From assembly GCA_009837395.1 (NCBI GenBank), contig VXTP01000008.1, positions 124,001-188,000 on the forward strand: a DNA stretch of 64,000 nucleotides. Direction: 5' to 3'. The notes under the pieces were generated by a model that was not told where the DNA came from, ran no database searches, and saw only the letters and a program-made list of their open reading frames with translations. Both the position numbers and the translations under genes were made by a program. The stretch is from Gemmatimonadota bacterium (GTDB lineage: Bacteria; JAAXHH01). Shown here piece by piece: positions 24,193 through 29,325 of the stretch; positions within the stretch are counted from its first letter, which is position 1, and every line of letters begins with the position of its first letter.

Positions 24193-25689
24193 TTATTCTT
24201 CGGGAATCCGCAGGCCCACCAGGAATTGTGCGTTGCCGCGCTGAATTCTGAAGCGGATCGCCTGGCCGGTTTCGAACTCCCGGACGACGCCGAGGAATTC
24301 CTGTACGCTGGACACCACTTCGCCGTTCACCTCGCGGATCAGGTCGCCCCGCTGGAGTCCCCGGTCCTCGGCCACGCTGCCCGACCGCACGACGGTAATC
24401 ACCACGCCGGATCCCCGCTCGAAAAACCTGGACCACTGACTGGAAACATCCATTACGTCAATGCCGAGGTTGGACACGGGACTCTTTGGCGGTTCCTCTC
24501 TCGATACTATGCTCGTGGGCTCGTCTCCAGGCAACTCGCCCAGTTCGATCGCGACCGTCACGGGTGCTCCGTCACGGATCACCTCGAGTTCCACTTCCGT
24601 GCCCGGTGCGATGTCGGCAATGCGGTACCGCAGGTCGTCCGTATCCTCCACTACCTTTCCGTTCAGGGCTACGACCACGTCGTCTTGCTGGAGATTGGAG
24701 TCTCTCGCCGGACCATCGTCCGTGATCCCTTCGATGAGCACTCCGTTCGAGTTCTCAAGCCCCATGGACTCTGCCACGACCTCATCGAGGTTGTTGATCC
24801 TTACACCCAGGTAACCGCGCGCAACACGTCCGTCCTCGACCAGCCGGGTCATGATGTTGCGGGCCATGTTCGCCGGAACGGCAAAGCCGATGCCCTGGTA
24901 ACCGCCCGTCCGGGTATAAATGGCCGTGTTGATGCCCATGAGATTGCCTTCCATGTCCACCAGGGCACCGCCGCTGTTCCCGGGATTGATAGCGGCGTCC
25001 GTCTGTATGAAGTTCTCGTAAGTGACCTGGCCCGGCTGCGTAGGCAGTACCCGCCCCCGGCCCTTGGCGCTGACGATCCCCGCCGTGACGCTGTGGTTCA
25101 GCCCGAAAGGATTGCCCACGGCCATGACCCATTCGCCCACGCGCAGCTGTTCCGAATCGCCGAAAGGCAGCGCGGGAAGATCATCGAAATCGACTTTGAT
25201 AACGGCCAGGTCCGTCCTTGGATCCAGCCCGATGACTTCAGCGTTCACCTCACGCTCGTCCGACAACTGGACCTTCAGTTCATCTGCGTTTTCCACCACG
25301 TGATTGTTCGTCAGGATGTAGCCATCCTCCGACACGATGACCCCGGAACCCACGCCCCTGAATTGCCTGGGCTGGTCGTTCCGCGGCTGACCACCGCCGA
25401 AAAACTCCTCCCAGGGACTCCAGAAACGCTGCGCCTGCGCCTGCCTGACCACGCGTTTACTCTTAATCAGCACGACCGAAGGCTTGACTCTTTCCGCTAT
25501 AGTCGCAAAGGTCTCGCTGAAATCCTCGAGCGATCGCTGGTCCGCCGCCACGACCGGCGTGATCGACCGGTATACGTCGCGATCTGCAACCGATGCGTCC
25601 CAGTTGGAAATGAACAGTGCCCCAAGCACCATGCCCGTGACGAGCAGCGCCGCGGCGGCCAGGCTGCCGAACTTCCTTTTCACCTTCAT
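24193..25689 (-). CDS. DegQ/HtrA-family periplasmic serine protease
   Basis: A 498-residue Do-like protease. An N-terminal signal/anchor (LAAAALLVTGMVLGALFISN, residues 10-29) sends it to the periplasm. The triad is H130 (LTNNHVVENA), D160 (DPRTDLAVIKV) and S239 (AINPGNSGGALVD). Two PDZ domains follow (about 295-385 and 405-495), typical of DegP/DegQ, where they gate substrate access. GGGAG precedes the ATG. It is directly downstream of lon, giving an envelope plus cytoplasmic protein-quality pair, but it also has its own promoter at 25738-25766. Confidence 0.95.
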   Translation of the reverse strand: MKVKRKFGSLAAAALLVTGMVLGALFISNWDASVADRDVYRSITPVVAADQRSLEDFSETFATIAERVKPSVVLIKSKRVVRQAQAQRFWSPWEEFFGGGQPRNDQPRQFRGVGSGVIVSEDGYILTNNHVVENADELKVQLSDEREVNAEVIGLDPRTDLAVIKVDFDDLPALPFGDSEQLRVGEWVMAVGNPFGLNHSVTAGIVSAKGRGRVLPTQPGQVTYENFIQTDAAINPGNSGGALVDMEGNLMGINTAIYTRTGGYQGIGFAVPANMARNIMTRLVEDGRVARGYLGVRINNLDEVVAESMGLENSNGVLIEGITDDGPARDSNLQQDDVVVALNGKVVEDTDDLRYRIADIAPGTEVELEVIRDGAPVTVAIELGELPGDEPTSIVSREEPPKSPVSNLGIDVMDVSSQWSRFFERGSGVVITVVRSGSVAEDRGLQRGDLIREVNGEVVSSVQEFLGVVREFETGQAIRFRIQRGNAQFLVGLRIPEE

Positions 25690-25775: not shown

Positions 25776-28244
25776 TCAGTTCAGATTCGCGTCGCGAGGC
25801 GCAACCGTCAAGCCGCCTTCCAGGCTCTCCGCCCACGCCTCGTCGTTTTCCGGCGCGTCGACGGGTGCGTCTTCGACCGGTCCGTCCATGAGCGCCAGTT
25901 CCAGGACCTGGTCGATGTGGTCGACCAGGCAGAAACCGAGCTTCTCCTTGACGGCCGCGGGCACGTCGTCCAGGTCTTTCTCGTTCCGGCGGGGCAGGAT
26001 GATGGTGGTGATGCCGGCCCGCATCGCCCCGAGGACCTTCTCCTTGATGCCGCCCACGGGCATGACCTTACCGCGGAGGGTGACCTCGCCGGTCATGGCC
26101 AGGTCGTTCCGTACGGGACGGCCCGTGAACAGGGAGGTCAGCACCGTCACGAGCGCCACGCCCGCGGAGGGCCCGTCCTTGGGAATGGCGCCCACGGGCA
26201 GATGGATGTGGATGTCGTGCGCGCCGAAGAACGCCGGGTCGATCTGCCATTCCGCGGCGTGCGACCGCACGTACGTCAGGGCGGCCCGGGCGGATTCCTT
26301 CATTACGTCGCCCAGCTGGCCCGTTAGCGTCAGGCCCTTGCCGCCGGACATCTTGCTGGCTTCCACGAACATGATTTCGCCGCCGGCAGGGGTCCACGCC
26401 AGGCCGATGGCCACGCCGGGTTCGCCGGTGCGCTCCGCGGTCTCGGAGAAGTACTCCGGCGGCCCCAGGTACTGGTGAAGGTCGTCTTCGGAAACCGGGA
26501 ACGGGGGCGCCTTTCCTTCGGCGACCGAACGGGCGGACTTGCGGGCCACCGTGCGGATCTTGCGTTCCAGGTTGCGCAGGCCCGCCTCCCGGGTGTAGTC
26601 GGCGATGATCCGGCCGATCGCGCGGTCGTCGAAGACCACGTCCTCGTTAGACAGCCCGTGCGTCTCCAGTTCCCGCGGGACGAGGTAGCGGCGGGCGATC
26701 TCGATCTTCTCCTCCTCCGTGTACCCCGACAGCTCGATGACCTCCATGCGGTCGCGCAACGGCTCCGGTATGCCGGCCAGCATGTTGGCCGTGGTCACGA
26801 ACATGACGTTGGACAGGTCGAAGGGCAGATCGATGTAGTGATCCGTGAAGGTGTCGTTCTGCTCCGGGTCGAGCACTTCGAGCAGCGCCGAGGAGGGATC
26901 TCCCCGGAAGTCCCGTCCAAGCTTGTCGATTTCGTCCAGCATGAAGACCGGGTTGTTGGTGCCCGCCTTGCGGATGCTCTGGATGATGCGGCCGGGCAGC
27001 GCGCCGATGTAGGTCCTGCGGTGCCCCCTGATCTCGGCCTCGTCGTGCACGCCGCCCAGCGAAATGCGCACGAACCGGCGGTCCAGGGCGCGGGCGATGG
27101 ACTTGCCCAGCGAGGTCTTGCCCACCCCAGGCGGTCCGACGAAGCACAGGATGGAACCCTTCAGGTCCGGCTTCAGGCTGCGCACGGCCAGGTGTTCGAG
27201 GATGCGGTCCTTGATCTTCTCGAGGCCGTAGTGGTCTTCGTCCAGGATCTCCCTGGCGCGCTCGATGTCCAGCTGATCCTCCGACGAGACCGACCAGGGC
27301 AGTTCCGACAGCCACTCGAGGTAGGTCCGCAGCGTCGAATACTCGGGAGAGATGGACGGGATGCGCTCCAGGCGCTGGAGCTCGCGCTCCGCCTCCACCC
27401 GGGCCAAATCCGGCAGGCCCGCTTCATCGATCTTCTCGCGCAGATCGGACAGGTCCTCGCCCTGGCCTTCGCCGTCTTCGCCGAGTTCCCGCCGGATGGC
27501 CTTCATCTGCTCGCGGAGATAGTACTCGCGCTGGGCCTTGCCCATCTTGTCCTCGACCTGGGACTGGATGCGGCTGCCCGTCTCCGCCACCTCGATTTCG
27601 TGGGCGATCAGGAAGGTCAGCGCCTTCAGCCGGTCCTTGACGTCGCTCAATTCCAGCATGGCCTGCTGGTCTTCGAGGGAGATCTTCAGGTTGAAGGCGA
27701 TGAAATCGGCCATCTTGGAGGGCTGGTCCTCCAGGTTGAGCAGGGGAATCCGCAACTCCTCGGACATGGTCGGGACCAGTTCGATAAGACGCTGGAACTG
27801 CTCCGCCAGGTTGTGGGCCAGGGCCTTGCCTTCCATGGACTCGTTCTTCCGCTCGGCCTGAAGCTCCACCCGGGCACGCATGATGGGCTCGGTTTCGAGC
27901 ACTTCCAGCACCCTGGCGCGCGAGACCCCGTGCACGACGGCGTGGAGGCTGTCTTCCGGCAGTTTCATCGTCTTGTAGATCCGGACCAGCGTTCCGAACT
28001 TGTAGAGATCGTCCGGCGCCGGCCGGTCGGTCTCCGGGTCCCGCTGCGCCAGGATCAGGACCATCTTGTCCTGCTGCAGCGCTTCGTCCAGCGCCTTGAC
28101 GGAACCCGGCCGGTCGGCCACCAGCGCGGCGGCCATGTGGGGATACACGACCAGGTTGCGCACGGGCAGCACGGCGATGGACTCGATCACCGAATCTTCC
28201 TGCAGATTCGTCTGGATTTCCTGGAGTGCCTTGACCTCGGCCAT
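25776..28244 (-). CDS. lon: ATP-dependent Lon protease
   Basis: An 822-residue LonA from ATG 28244, where GAGG (complement of 28252-28255) lies seven bases upstream; a longer in-frame extension to 28328 has no such site. Order: N-terminal substrate domain (SIAVLPVRNLVVYPHMAAAL), coiled coil, AAA+ module with Walker A GPPGVGKTSLGKS near residue 370 and Walker B-type VFMLDEIDKLG, and a C-terminal protease domain with the catalytic Ser in PKDGPSAGVAL (near 692) and Lys in GIKEKVLGAMRAG (near 734). It degrades misfolded and regulatory proteins in the cytoplasm. A sigma-54-type promoter with distant dyads lies upstream. Confidence 0.97.
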   Translation of the reverse strand: MAEVKALQEIQTNLQEDSVIESIAVLPVRNLVVYPHMAAALVADRPGSVKALDEALQQDKMVLILAQRDPETDRPAPDDLYKFGTLVRIYKTMKLPEDSLHAVVHGVSRARVLEVLETEPIMRARVELQAERKNESMEGKALAHNLAEQFQRLIELVPTMSEELRIPLLNLEDQPSKMADFIAFNLKISLEDQQAMLELSDVKDRLKALTFLIAHEIEVAETGSRIQSQVEDKMGKAQREYYLREQMKAIRRELGEDGEGQGEDLSDLREKIDEAGLPDLARVEAERELQRLERIPSISPEYSTLRTYLEWLSELPWSVSSEDQLDIERAREILDEDHYGLEKIKDRILEHLAVRSLKPDLKGSILCFVGPPGVGKTSLGKSIARALDRRFVRISLGGVHDEAEIRGHRRTYIGALPGRIIQSIRKAGTNNPVFMLDEIDKLGRDFRGDPSSALLEVLDPEQNDTFTDHYIDLPFDLSNVMFVTTANMLAGIPEPLRDRMEVIELSGYTEEEKIEIARRYLVPRELETHGLSNEDVVFDDRAIGRIIADYTREAGLRNLERKIRTVARKSARSVAEGKAPPFPVSEDDLHQYLGPPEYFSETAERTGEPGVAIGLAWTPAGGEIMFVEASKMSGGKGLTLTGQLGDVMKESARAALTYVRSHAAEWQIDPAFFGAHDIHIHLPVGAIPKDGPSAGVALVTVLTSLFTGRPVRNDLAMTGEVTLRGKVMPVGGIKEKVLGAMRAGITTIILPRRNEKDLDDVPAAVKEKLGFCLVDHIDQVLELALMDGPVEDAPVDAPENDEAWAESLEGGLTVAPRDANLN

Positions 28245-28463
28245 GCTTGTGCCTCGCTTTCCCTGCCTTCGCTTTACAGCCGCTTCGAGAGACGACCGGC
28301 CGCACGGGAGACGGTCAGCCGGTTGCACGTACCACCCTGTGGTGCGCCAAGTCGGCGGACGACCGGCCGCCCTCGTGGCTGCTTACCCTCTTTATACGCA
28401 CGAACCGGCCTGTACGCTTCATTTGGACCGGAAGTTCGTGCCTTAATGCTATAAAAGGAAGGC

Positions 28464-28478
28464 GCAAACATCATGCCA
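28464..28478 (-). promoter_or_regulatory. Sigma-54 (-24/-12) promoter candidate for lon
   Basis: The minus strand reads TGGCATG, four bases, TTGC (complement of 28464-28478). This is the sigma-54 signature TGGCACG-N4-TTGC with one mismatch, and it has the required GG-N10-GC spacing. The predicted start is near 28452, giving a ~208-base leader to lon. Confidence 0.55.
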
Positions 28479-28520
28479 CGGCGATTCCGGGCCGGTGTAA
28501 CGGCGATTCCGGGCCGGTGT
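28479..28520. repeat. 20-bp direct repeat next to the lon promoter
   Basis: CGGCGATTCCGGGCCGGTGT occurs at 28479-28498 and 28501-28520, separated by two bases, directly upstream of the -24 element. A truncated third copy (GACGATTCCGGGC) is at 28565-28577. Confidence 0.75.
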
Positions 28521-28605
28521 GGGAGTAATTGGGGCGCCGGCGCCCCGATTCCGCCCGCGAGCAAGACGATTCCGGGCTTTCTCACTACGAATCGCCATCG
28601 GAATA

Positions 28606-28649
28606 TGCCAATTTGGCAGTTTCATACGACAACAACTGCCATTTTGGCA
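28606..28649. promoter_or_regulatory. Two dyad elements, candidate upstream activator sites
   Basis: TGCCAATTTGGCA (28606-28618) and TGCCATTTTGGCA (28637-28649) are near-identical 13-bp dyads with TGCCA/TGGCA arms. They are spaced 31 bp, about three helical turns. Their centres are about 160 and 190 bp upstream of the predicted lon start, the distance expected for enhancer-binding-protein sites of sigma-54 promoters. Confidence 0.55.
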
Positions 28650-28654
28650 GATCA

Positions 28655-28670
28655 TGGCACTTTCAGTGCA
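28655..28670 (+). promoter_or_regulatory. Weak sigma-54-like element facing the DUF5683-like gene
   Basis: TGGCAC, five bases, GTGCA keeps the GG-N10-GC spacing but has GTGC instead of TTGC. It lies about 150 bp before the DUF5683-like start, immediately beside the dyads. Confidence 0.3.
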
Positions 28671-28818: not shown

Positions 28819-29325
28819 ATGTATCGCATTATTGGATATGTATTGATTGCCGCGGTCATCTCACCGGTCTATGCCCAACAGACGGAGGTGATGATGCTTA
28901 ACAGCGGTCAGATAACGTCGCCTGAGGATTTCTATACTCCTCCACAGGAGATGGTGAAAGTAAAGAAACCGTGGATTGCGTTTTTGTTATCGACCGCTAT
29001 TGTAGGCAGTGGGCAGTTTTATAACGAACAATTCGGCAAGGGTTCCGCCATGTTCCTTGGTGCTGCGACCGGAATCGGTATGTATTTCCACGCAACCAGA
29101 GACAACAAGTTTAACTTCGTATCCGGCAAAGAAATGGATCTTGATGACAACGATCATCTGCGTGGAGTCGGAGCAGGTATATTGCTGGGATTCATCGTAT
29201 GGTCCATGATCGATGCGCCCCTTTCATCCATCAAAATAAACGAGCGCAATCAGCAGGTTATGACCGTGGGACCGATGATAGACCGGAACAGGGTAGGGGT
29301 AGTATTCAGCCTGAATCTCGATTGA
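28819..29325 (+). CDS. DUF5683-like exported/membrane protein
   Basis: A 168-residue protein from ATG 28819, five bases after AAGGAG; the much longer upstream frame is noncoding. MYRIIGYVLIAAVISPVYAQ is a signal peptide. PWIAFLLSTAIVGSGQFYNE and GKGSAMFLGAATGIGMYFH match the 'PGxGQxYNxxxxKG' helical hairpin of DUF5683-type proteins, and GVGAGILLGFIVWSMIDAP is a second membrane pair. The C-terminus ends in alternating hydrophobics (VGVVFSLNLD), as in outer-membrane strands. Function is unknown. The gene is AT-richer than its neighbours and divergent from lon. Confidence 0.6.
   Translation: MYRIIGYVLIAAVISPVYAQQTEVMMLNSGQITSPEDFYTPPQEMVKVKKPWIAFLLSTAIVGSGQFYNEQFGKGSAMFLGAATGIGMYFHATRDNKFNFVSGKEMDLDDNDHLRGVGAGILLGFIVWSMIDAPLSSIKINERNQQVMTVGPMIDRNRVGVVFSLNLD

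Follow-up and report, generated by a model that had tools for sequence, protein, structure and literature searches.

Heat shock in bacteria is mostly taught as sigma-32 or repressor control, and the RpoH (sigma-32), HrcA/CIRCE, HspR/HAIR and CtsR regulons target dnaK, groESL, clpB, hsp20 and lon. Sigma-54 promoters carry the consensus TGGCAY-N5-TTGC with GG-N10-GC spacing, and their upstream activator sites typically lie about 80-200 bp from the start. HsfA of Myxococcus is NtrC-like. Where COG numbers are given below, we take COG0542 to be ClpA/B and COG0466 to be Lon.

For Planctomycetota and Bacteroidota, the available text of PMC12316311 (PLoS One 2025) predicts sigma-54 control of GroEL, GroES, IbpA, GrpE, DnaJ and DnaK, and also of COG0542, COG0466 and COG1066. 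Chlamydia trachomatis hrcA-grpE-dnaK has tandem sigma-66 and sigma-54 promoters with AtoC as activator; on heat shock AtoC rises and rpoN falls, and raised sigma-54 activity under heat shock has been reported for some bacteria, as cited in the same source (PMC8762339, available part). In Myxococcus xanthus, the two-component pair HsfA-HsfB controls the heat-shock gene lonD (Ueki and Inouye 2002, as cited in the available part of PMC9548883). A chaperone COG category is over-represented in the genomic context analysed in PMC3162934 (available part), and in the planctomycete Rhodopirellula no rpoN change was seen on heat shock, a result with no bearing on rpoN activity (PMC2754498, available part). 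The available part of PMC4641369 yielded nothing on heat-shock genes under sigma-54. A preliminary description of the present DNA had called a sigma-54 stress circuit unusual, a remark that needs tempering in view of the predicted or known precedents in Planctomycetota, Bacteroidota, Chlamydia and Myxococcus.

The lon locus considered here was found in a 64-kb window, by which we mean the whole stretch of DNA that was analysed. Its features are listed with the basis for each in brackets.

24193..25689, minus strand: HtrA/DegP-like trypsin-PDZ protease gene (Pfam Trypsin_2 and two PDZ_2 stretches)
25776..28244, minus strand: lon protease gene, 822 aa, ATG at 28244 (Pfam Lon_C, LON_substr_bdg, AAA and Lon_lid)
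28390..28423, minus strand: conserved block in the lon leader, GAAGCGTACAGGCCGGTTCGTGCGTATAA, TATAA-containing (lon-leader alignment, by eye)
28464..28478, minus strand: sigma-54 -24/-12 element of lon, TGGCATGATGTTTGC (sequence read, motif scan and conservation)
28606..28618, no strand: promoter-proximal dyad, TGCCAATTTGGCA, proposed enhancer site (exact read and conservation)
28637..28649, no strand: promoter-distal dyad, TGCCATTTTGGCA, proposed enhancer site (exact read and conservation)

The reading of these elements in the preliminary description holds to the base: the -24/-12 element has the GG-N10-GC spacing and a single departure, C to T, from TGGCAC-N5-TTGC, which counts against the sigma-54 reading, and the two dyads are exact and stand 31 bp apart. 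That the element points at lon is borne out by the Lon_C and LON_substr_bdg domains of the gene ahead, the start-codon region of which is conserved across relatives in the alignment. Were transcription to begin at the predicted start near 28452, the lon leader would be about 208 nt long. The dyads lie 127 and 158 bp upstream of the -24 element, or about 160 and 190 bp from that predicted start, and a tandem repeat, ACGGCGATTCCGGGCCGGTGT, with two copies in the window (28478-28520), is situated between dyads and promoter; its copy number varies between species (relatives L195, L197 and L198). The HtrA-like gene follows 86 bp after lon on the same strand, and the two possibly share a transcript. 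A divergent ORF at 28819 has no Pfam match.

If only the window is considered, sigma-54-like sites that have two mismatches or fewer occur at chance frequency (8 against 8.62 expected), and the lon promoter is therefore not significant by itself. Dyads with at most one mismatch number three in the window against 1.66 expected, a count reached by 24 of 100 shuffles, although two of the three are the perfect, closely spaced pair. The significance of the lon motif and its dyads comes from the genome-wide data and from relatives, not from the window. This chance frequency would suit a reading in which the lon motif is a chance match, lon is served by a housekeeping promoter in its leader, and the dyads serve the divergent gene at 28819. 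The TATAA-containing block at 28390-28423 would also suit it, as this block shows few changes by eye over the seven lon leaders with a correct start; it may be an additional promoter of the housekeeping type or some element of the leader, and the scan gave no sigma-70 site there at its threshold. A chance match is, however, hard to square with a motif kept in all eight species read and a layout that recurs at other heat-shock genes, as set out below. As a possible second promoter we weighed a sigma-54-like site at 28655-28670 that faces the divergent gene, and discarded it since the four relatives readable by eye at this point (L195, L197, L198 and L199) lack its -24 half; this too argues against dyads that serve that gene. 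We consider this reading very improbable as a whole; lon may nonetheless have a housekeeping promoter in addition to the sigma-54 one.

The lon search covered nine of the 12 genomes of the genus. The gene is broken in G005, leaving eight intact 5' ends with that of the own genome, and the alignment comprised eight loci, among them L196 with a wrong start; values for G002 were taken from L037. We see that TGGCATGNNGTTTGC is kept at lon in 8/8 species read, the own one included, and that both dyads are kept alongside it, 30-32 bp apart and with no more than one changed arm base per dyad. Such a change affects the proximal dyad in two of the eight species (G004 and G008) and the distal dyad in two (G004 and G007). 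The DNA between motif and dyads diverges among the eight species while the elements themselves stay. In six of the eight, the end of the dyad is 86-190 bp from the -24 element. In G004 and G008 no more than 21-54 bp separate the lon dyads from the -24 element downstream of them, which is close for looping and counts against our main reading.

These distances bear on an alternative explanation, that the dyads bind a heat-shock repressor (HrcA-, HspR- or CtsR-like, with a new specificity) and that the sigma-54 motifs are activated by an enhancer-binding protein (EBP) bound elsewhere or acting from solution. A proximal dyad 21-22 bp from the -24 element, as found in G004 and G008, fits a repressor well. 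In the other six species the dyads are outside the promoter, which does not fit, and by eye the alignment shows nothing else conserved ahead of the lon promoter, a further point against a repressor at the dyads.

The own genome (G000; 3.80 Mb, 47 contigs, 95.6% complete) holds rpoN (PF04552, E 3.1e-53 in a profile search). With one mismatch allowed, TGCCAWTTTGGCA has 15 strand-wise matches in it against 4 in the reversed control. Dyad pairs are present at four places only: at lon (C23); between a sigma-70-family gene and an hsp20 gene (Pfam HSP20) that is followed by dnaK (C34); at clpB (C36); and between a second hsp20 and a mechanosensitive-channel gene (C42). Lone dyads are found at three places, C17, C24 and C41, and the last of these is upstream of groES-groEL, where a second copy matching at 9 of 10 arm bases makes a variant pair. 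The sigma-70-family gene divergent from hsp20-dnaK (L013 6741-7607) starts 73 bp from the dyad pair. A second lon paralogue, 47% identical, was noted at G000:C42:131544-133841 (L213) and is present in each of the nine genus genomes searched.

Perfect TGGCAC-N5-TTGC motifs are not commoner in this genome than in the reversed control (six against six), a count that goes against our main reading. Four of these six are the promoters of hsp20-dnaK, clpB, groES and hsp20, and they lie 76 to 153 bp downstream of their dyads. With about seven dyad places in 3.8 Mb, our own arithmetic puts the chance of a dyad neighbour for a given motif at about once in several thousand. The GG-N10-GC spacing within TGGCAY-N5-TTGC is common to lon and these four other heat-shock promoters. 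The preliminary description, which had proposed that sigma-54 with distant activator dyads drives lon, had looked among other things to rpoN, to further dyad pairs and to conservation for a check; these were found, the dyad pairs upstream of perfect sigma-54 motifs, and on these sequence data the interpretation is supported and probably correct.

The five promoters were also compared with the consensus sequences of known operators, with no shuffle control, and no good match to CIRCE, HAIR or CtsR boxes was obtained (fewest mismatches 6-9 of 18, 4-7 of 14 and 7-8 of 17, respectively), which argues against the repressor explanation. For RpoH, the best sites for CTTGAA / CCCCAT, likewise with no shuffle control, have 3-4 mismatches of 12.

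The motif scan was extended to 10 of the 12 genus genomes and gave 68 perfect motifs, 62 in nine relatives (G001-G009) and the own six. The surrounding DNA of all 68 was scanned, and a dyad was counted if it lay no more than 260 bp upstream of the motif and matched at 9 or all 10 of its arm bases. Such a dyad accompanies 30 of the 68, and all 30 precede hsp20 (13), clpB (9) or groES (8), at 81-192 bp ahead of the gene. None of the other 38, which lack a dyad, precedes a gene that matches the heat-shock queries. This split between dyad and heat-shock gene is without exception, in genomes that are related and so do not amount to 68 independent trials. In 30/30 cases the dyads are 76-188 bp upstream of the -24 element, again outside the promoter and at odds with a repressor. 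Two motifs recur with a different conserved upstream block and no dyad, TGGCACGTTGTTTGC in eight genomes and TGGCACGCTGTTTGC in four; the dyad is therefore not a general feature of the sigma-54 promoters of the genus. In the own genome a TonB-receptor gene follows the former at a distance of 279 bp, and in G006 a porin gene follows the latter. The TGGCACGTTGTTTGC loci, which form a second sigma-54 promoter class of the genus, are L031, L169, L185, L333, L342, L357, L359 and L177.

Beyond the genus, a scan of named genomes gave at least 118 stretches with tandem dyads. Titles among the matches listed include Planctomycetes, Gemmatimonadetes, Latescibacterota, Krumholzibacteriota, Kuenenia, Bacteroidales, Firmicutes and others, and the nearest named relative among them is 'Gemmatimonadetes bacterium isolate IRC1_bin_16' (L054), with a ClpB 96% identical. 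A heat-shock gene starts within 500 bp downstream of the dyad in 36 of the 118 matches listed (L054 belonging to the genus), and 76 of these 118 are without any match to the heat-shock queries, which counts against our main reading. Heat-shock matches were kept only if they began within the first 60 residues. After exclusion of the genus and of rows that repeat the last 60 bp before the start codon, 47 non-redundant gene starts remained, and sigma-54-like sites were scored in these with hand-set weights at a threshold of 27 of 31. Among the matches listed, such a site is situated between the last dyad and the start codon at 12 of 15 dnaK and 10 of 14 hsp20 genes, and at the single lon (G136). 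A second lon-like case, L317 in G049, has dyads and a similar motif and was left uncounted, its lon match beginning far inside the gene.

For clpB the picture outside the genus differs, with a sigma-54-like site between dyad and start at only 4 of 17 genes among the matches listed. Among the 13 without such a site, ten have their last dyad 38-42 bp away from the start codon and one has it at 95 bp, and this too goes against our main reading. The ten loci are L070, L081, L093, L096, L149, L159, L284, L286, L287 and L319, several of which share a YTGCRYGACC-like stretch after the dyad. We considered whether a -24 element might be contained in the last clpB dyad of Gemmatimonadota-type genomes, and rejected this because the GG-to-GC spacing is, by eye, 12 (L285, L308 and L149) or 13 (L287) rather than 10. 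L093 (G051) is titled Gammaproteobacteria but groups in the phylum of G049, so that the title is probably wrong, and L070 and L081 look alike. The protein that binds the dyad at such clpB genes may be a repressor, may act from a downstream position, or may be another protein altogether.

We also assessed rpoN in dyad-bearing genomes, using 37 loci in 36 genomes from a set of 38 loci, with L153 left out. It scored over the cut-off in 31 of the 36. No match was obtained in four, G042 (Anaeroplasma), G060 (Bacillales), G072 (Clostridia) and G074 (Acholeplasmatales), and the match in G073 (Erysipelotrichaceae) was weak and broken. The titles place all five in Firmicutes/Mollicutes, which runs against our main reading; these five must use the dyad otherwise or carry it by coincidence. 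The tandem TGCCAWWWTGGCA dyads of the rpoN-less Firmicutes/Mollicutes are at L069, L098, L107 and L126, with L100 being the locus of the weak, broken rpoN match, and L069 and L126 also hold a clpB-like gene. Within the phylum of G049, which is Gemmatimonadota going by the title of L088, tandem dyads were found in 19 of 200 genomes (control 0/200), in arrays of up to seven copies with steps of about 42 or 21 bp.

The repressor explanation gains from both of these results, as the short clpB distances with no sigma-54-like site (10/17 outside the genus, among the matches listed) look repressor-like and dyads occur also in genomes that lack rpoN. Weighed with the promoter distances in the genus and the results for known operator boxes, we regard a repressor at the dyads as unlikely.

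If sigma-54 drives these promoters, an EBP would have to act at the dyads, and candidates were sought in the own genome using PF00158, a profile that matched in all 14 control genomes. Three clear EBPs were obtained (229-236 bits), here called A, B and C, and there were three weak matches (20-31 bits), one of them inside clpB. B (561 aa) and C (553 aa) are in tandem on contig C47, and both have a receiver, Sigma54_activat, a lid and HTH_8; by eye, no kinase gene was recognised beside the pair. The GAFT[NDG]A loop reads GAFTDA in the C proteins of the genus and GAFTNA in its B proteins; both proteins of G014 have GAFTGA. A Walker B pattern of our own matched 9 of 13 B and C sequences. At the phospho-acceptor position of B, Glu replaces Asp in the own genome and G013, but four of the six orthologues read retain Asp, and phosphorylation is therefore not lost as a rule. 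Both genes are kept in the family (G012 and G013) and are side by side in G014 of the order.

The recognition stretches of the three proteins are SERSIYRK in C, QRTLFRK in B and VRTIQYK in A. C was used as a query against 18 dyad-bearing genomes from outside the order; 11 gave a best match whose end was readable, with ERTLYRK in eight, ERTLYRM in Kuenenia and another stretch in two. On this basis C may be the protein that reads the dyad, perhaps with B, and the orphan tandem pair B-C is the likely activator candidate. A DNA pattern for ERTLYRK, which may lie inside or outside EBP genes, is present in 170 of 200 Gemmatimonadota genomes (control 2/200), once in 168 and twice in two. It is found in 19 of 19 genomes with tandem dyads and also in 151 of 181 without them; as the pattern is present with dyads or not, the link between dyad and ERTLYRK is weak in Gemmatimonadota, which also counts against our main reading. 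The pattern perhaps marks a nearly universal enhancer-binding protein of that phylum.

In the own genome the B-C operon showed no dyad, a further point against our main reading. Autoregulation was looked for in L001, L019, L044 and L045, none of which has a site that matches at 9 of 10 arm bases. Ahead of the B gene, single 9/10 sites were seen in two of eight genomes (G014 at 40 bp and G012 at 128 bp), a hint only, and in none of the other six, the own one included.

The gene for the remaining protein, A, lies on C17 and has as neighbours the genes for a dCache histidine kinase, a glycosyltransferase and a TonB receptor. As an intact response-regulator EBP with an adjoining kinase gene, it could be the activator at the dyads in place of B or C. 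Its glycosyltransferase and TonB-receptor neighbours would, however, suit the second sigma-54 class, with its TonB-receptor and porin genes and its other upstream block, and its VRTIQYK stretch differs from the ERTLYRK type of dyad-bearing genomes elsewhere. That A acts at the dyads therefore seems to us improbable.

Overall, lon is probably one target of a sigma-54-dependent heat-shock regulon in which an EBP acts on the dyads. RNA polymerase with sigma-54 would wait at the -24/-12 element at 28478-28464, and dimers of an AAA+ EBP would sit on the two upstream dyads. This EBP, likely C alone or together with B, would reach the polymerase by DNA looping and open the promoter through ATP hydrolysis when proteins misfold. 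The signal would arrive by way of a partner kinase or through titration by chaperones, and the same circuit would drive hsp20-dnaK, clpB, the second hsp20 and groES-groEL.

More tentatively, dnaK, groESL, clpB, hsp20 and lon might, in several phyla, be controlled mainly by a heat-shock response that uses sigma-54 and an enhancer of its own, CTGCCA-N3-TGGCAG. This response would be run by an orphan EBP tandem that senses misfolded protein directly (for example by release from DnaK) and not via a kinase. We find this wider proposal possible, if rather doubtful.

Sigma-54 at heat-shock genes is already in print. In the literature searched, with subscription papers mostly outside it and other sources available in part, we found no description of this dyad or of a heat-shock EBP for it; the operator, the compact footprinted regulon of a genus and the candidate activators are new as far as searched. 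The sigma-54 regulons of Planctomycetota and Bacteroidota resemble the present one in having heat-shock genes as targets, but the available text of PMC12316311 names no operator or activator for these genes and contains no Gemmatimonad- word, whereas the present regulon is compact, has a defined paired dyad and candidate EBPs, and is footprinted across a genus. The likeness to Chlamydia lies in chaperone genes with a sigma-54 promoter and an EBP, and in that most sigma-54 targets rise on heat shock; the differences are that HrcA also represses the sigma-66 promoter there and that rpoN itself falls (PMC8762339). The comparison with that source is by text, not DNA, and its available part does not mention the TGCCA-N3-TGGCA dyad. 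In Myxococcus a two-component system likewise switches on a heat-shock lon gene, a likeness drawn from the title of the cited work. The RpoH, HrcA/CIRCE, HspR/HAIR and CtsR regulons have the same target genes, but control here appears to combine sigma-54 with an enhancer. Given the operator sequence, a binding assay could test directly for the missing activator, and if our main reading is true, core chaperones and Lon would all be waiting for an ATP-driven enhancer-binding protein, which would be another heat-shock design beside those known.
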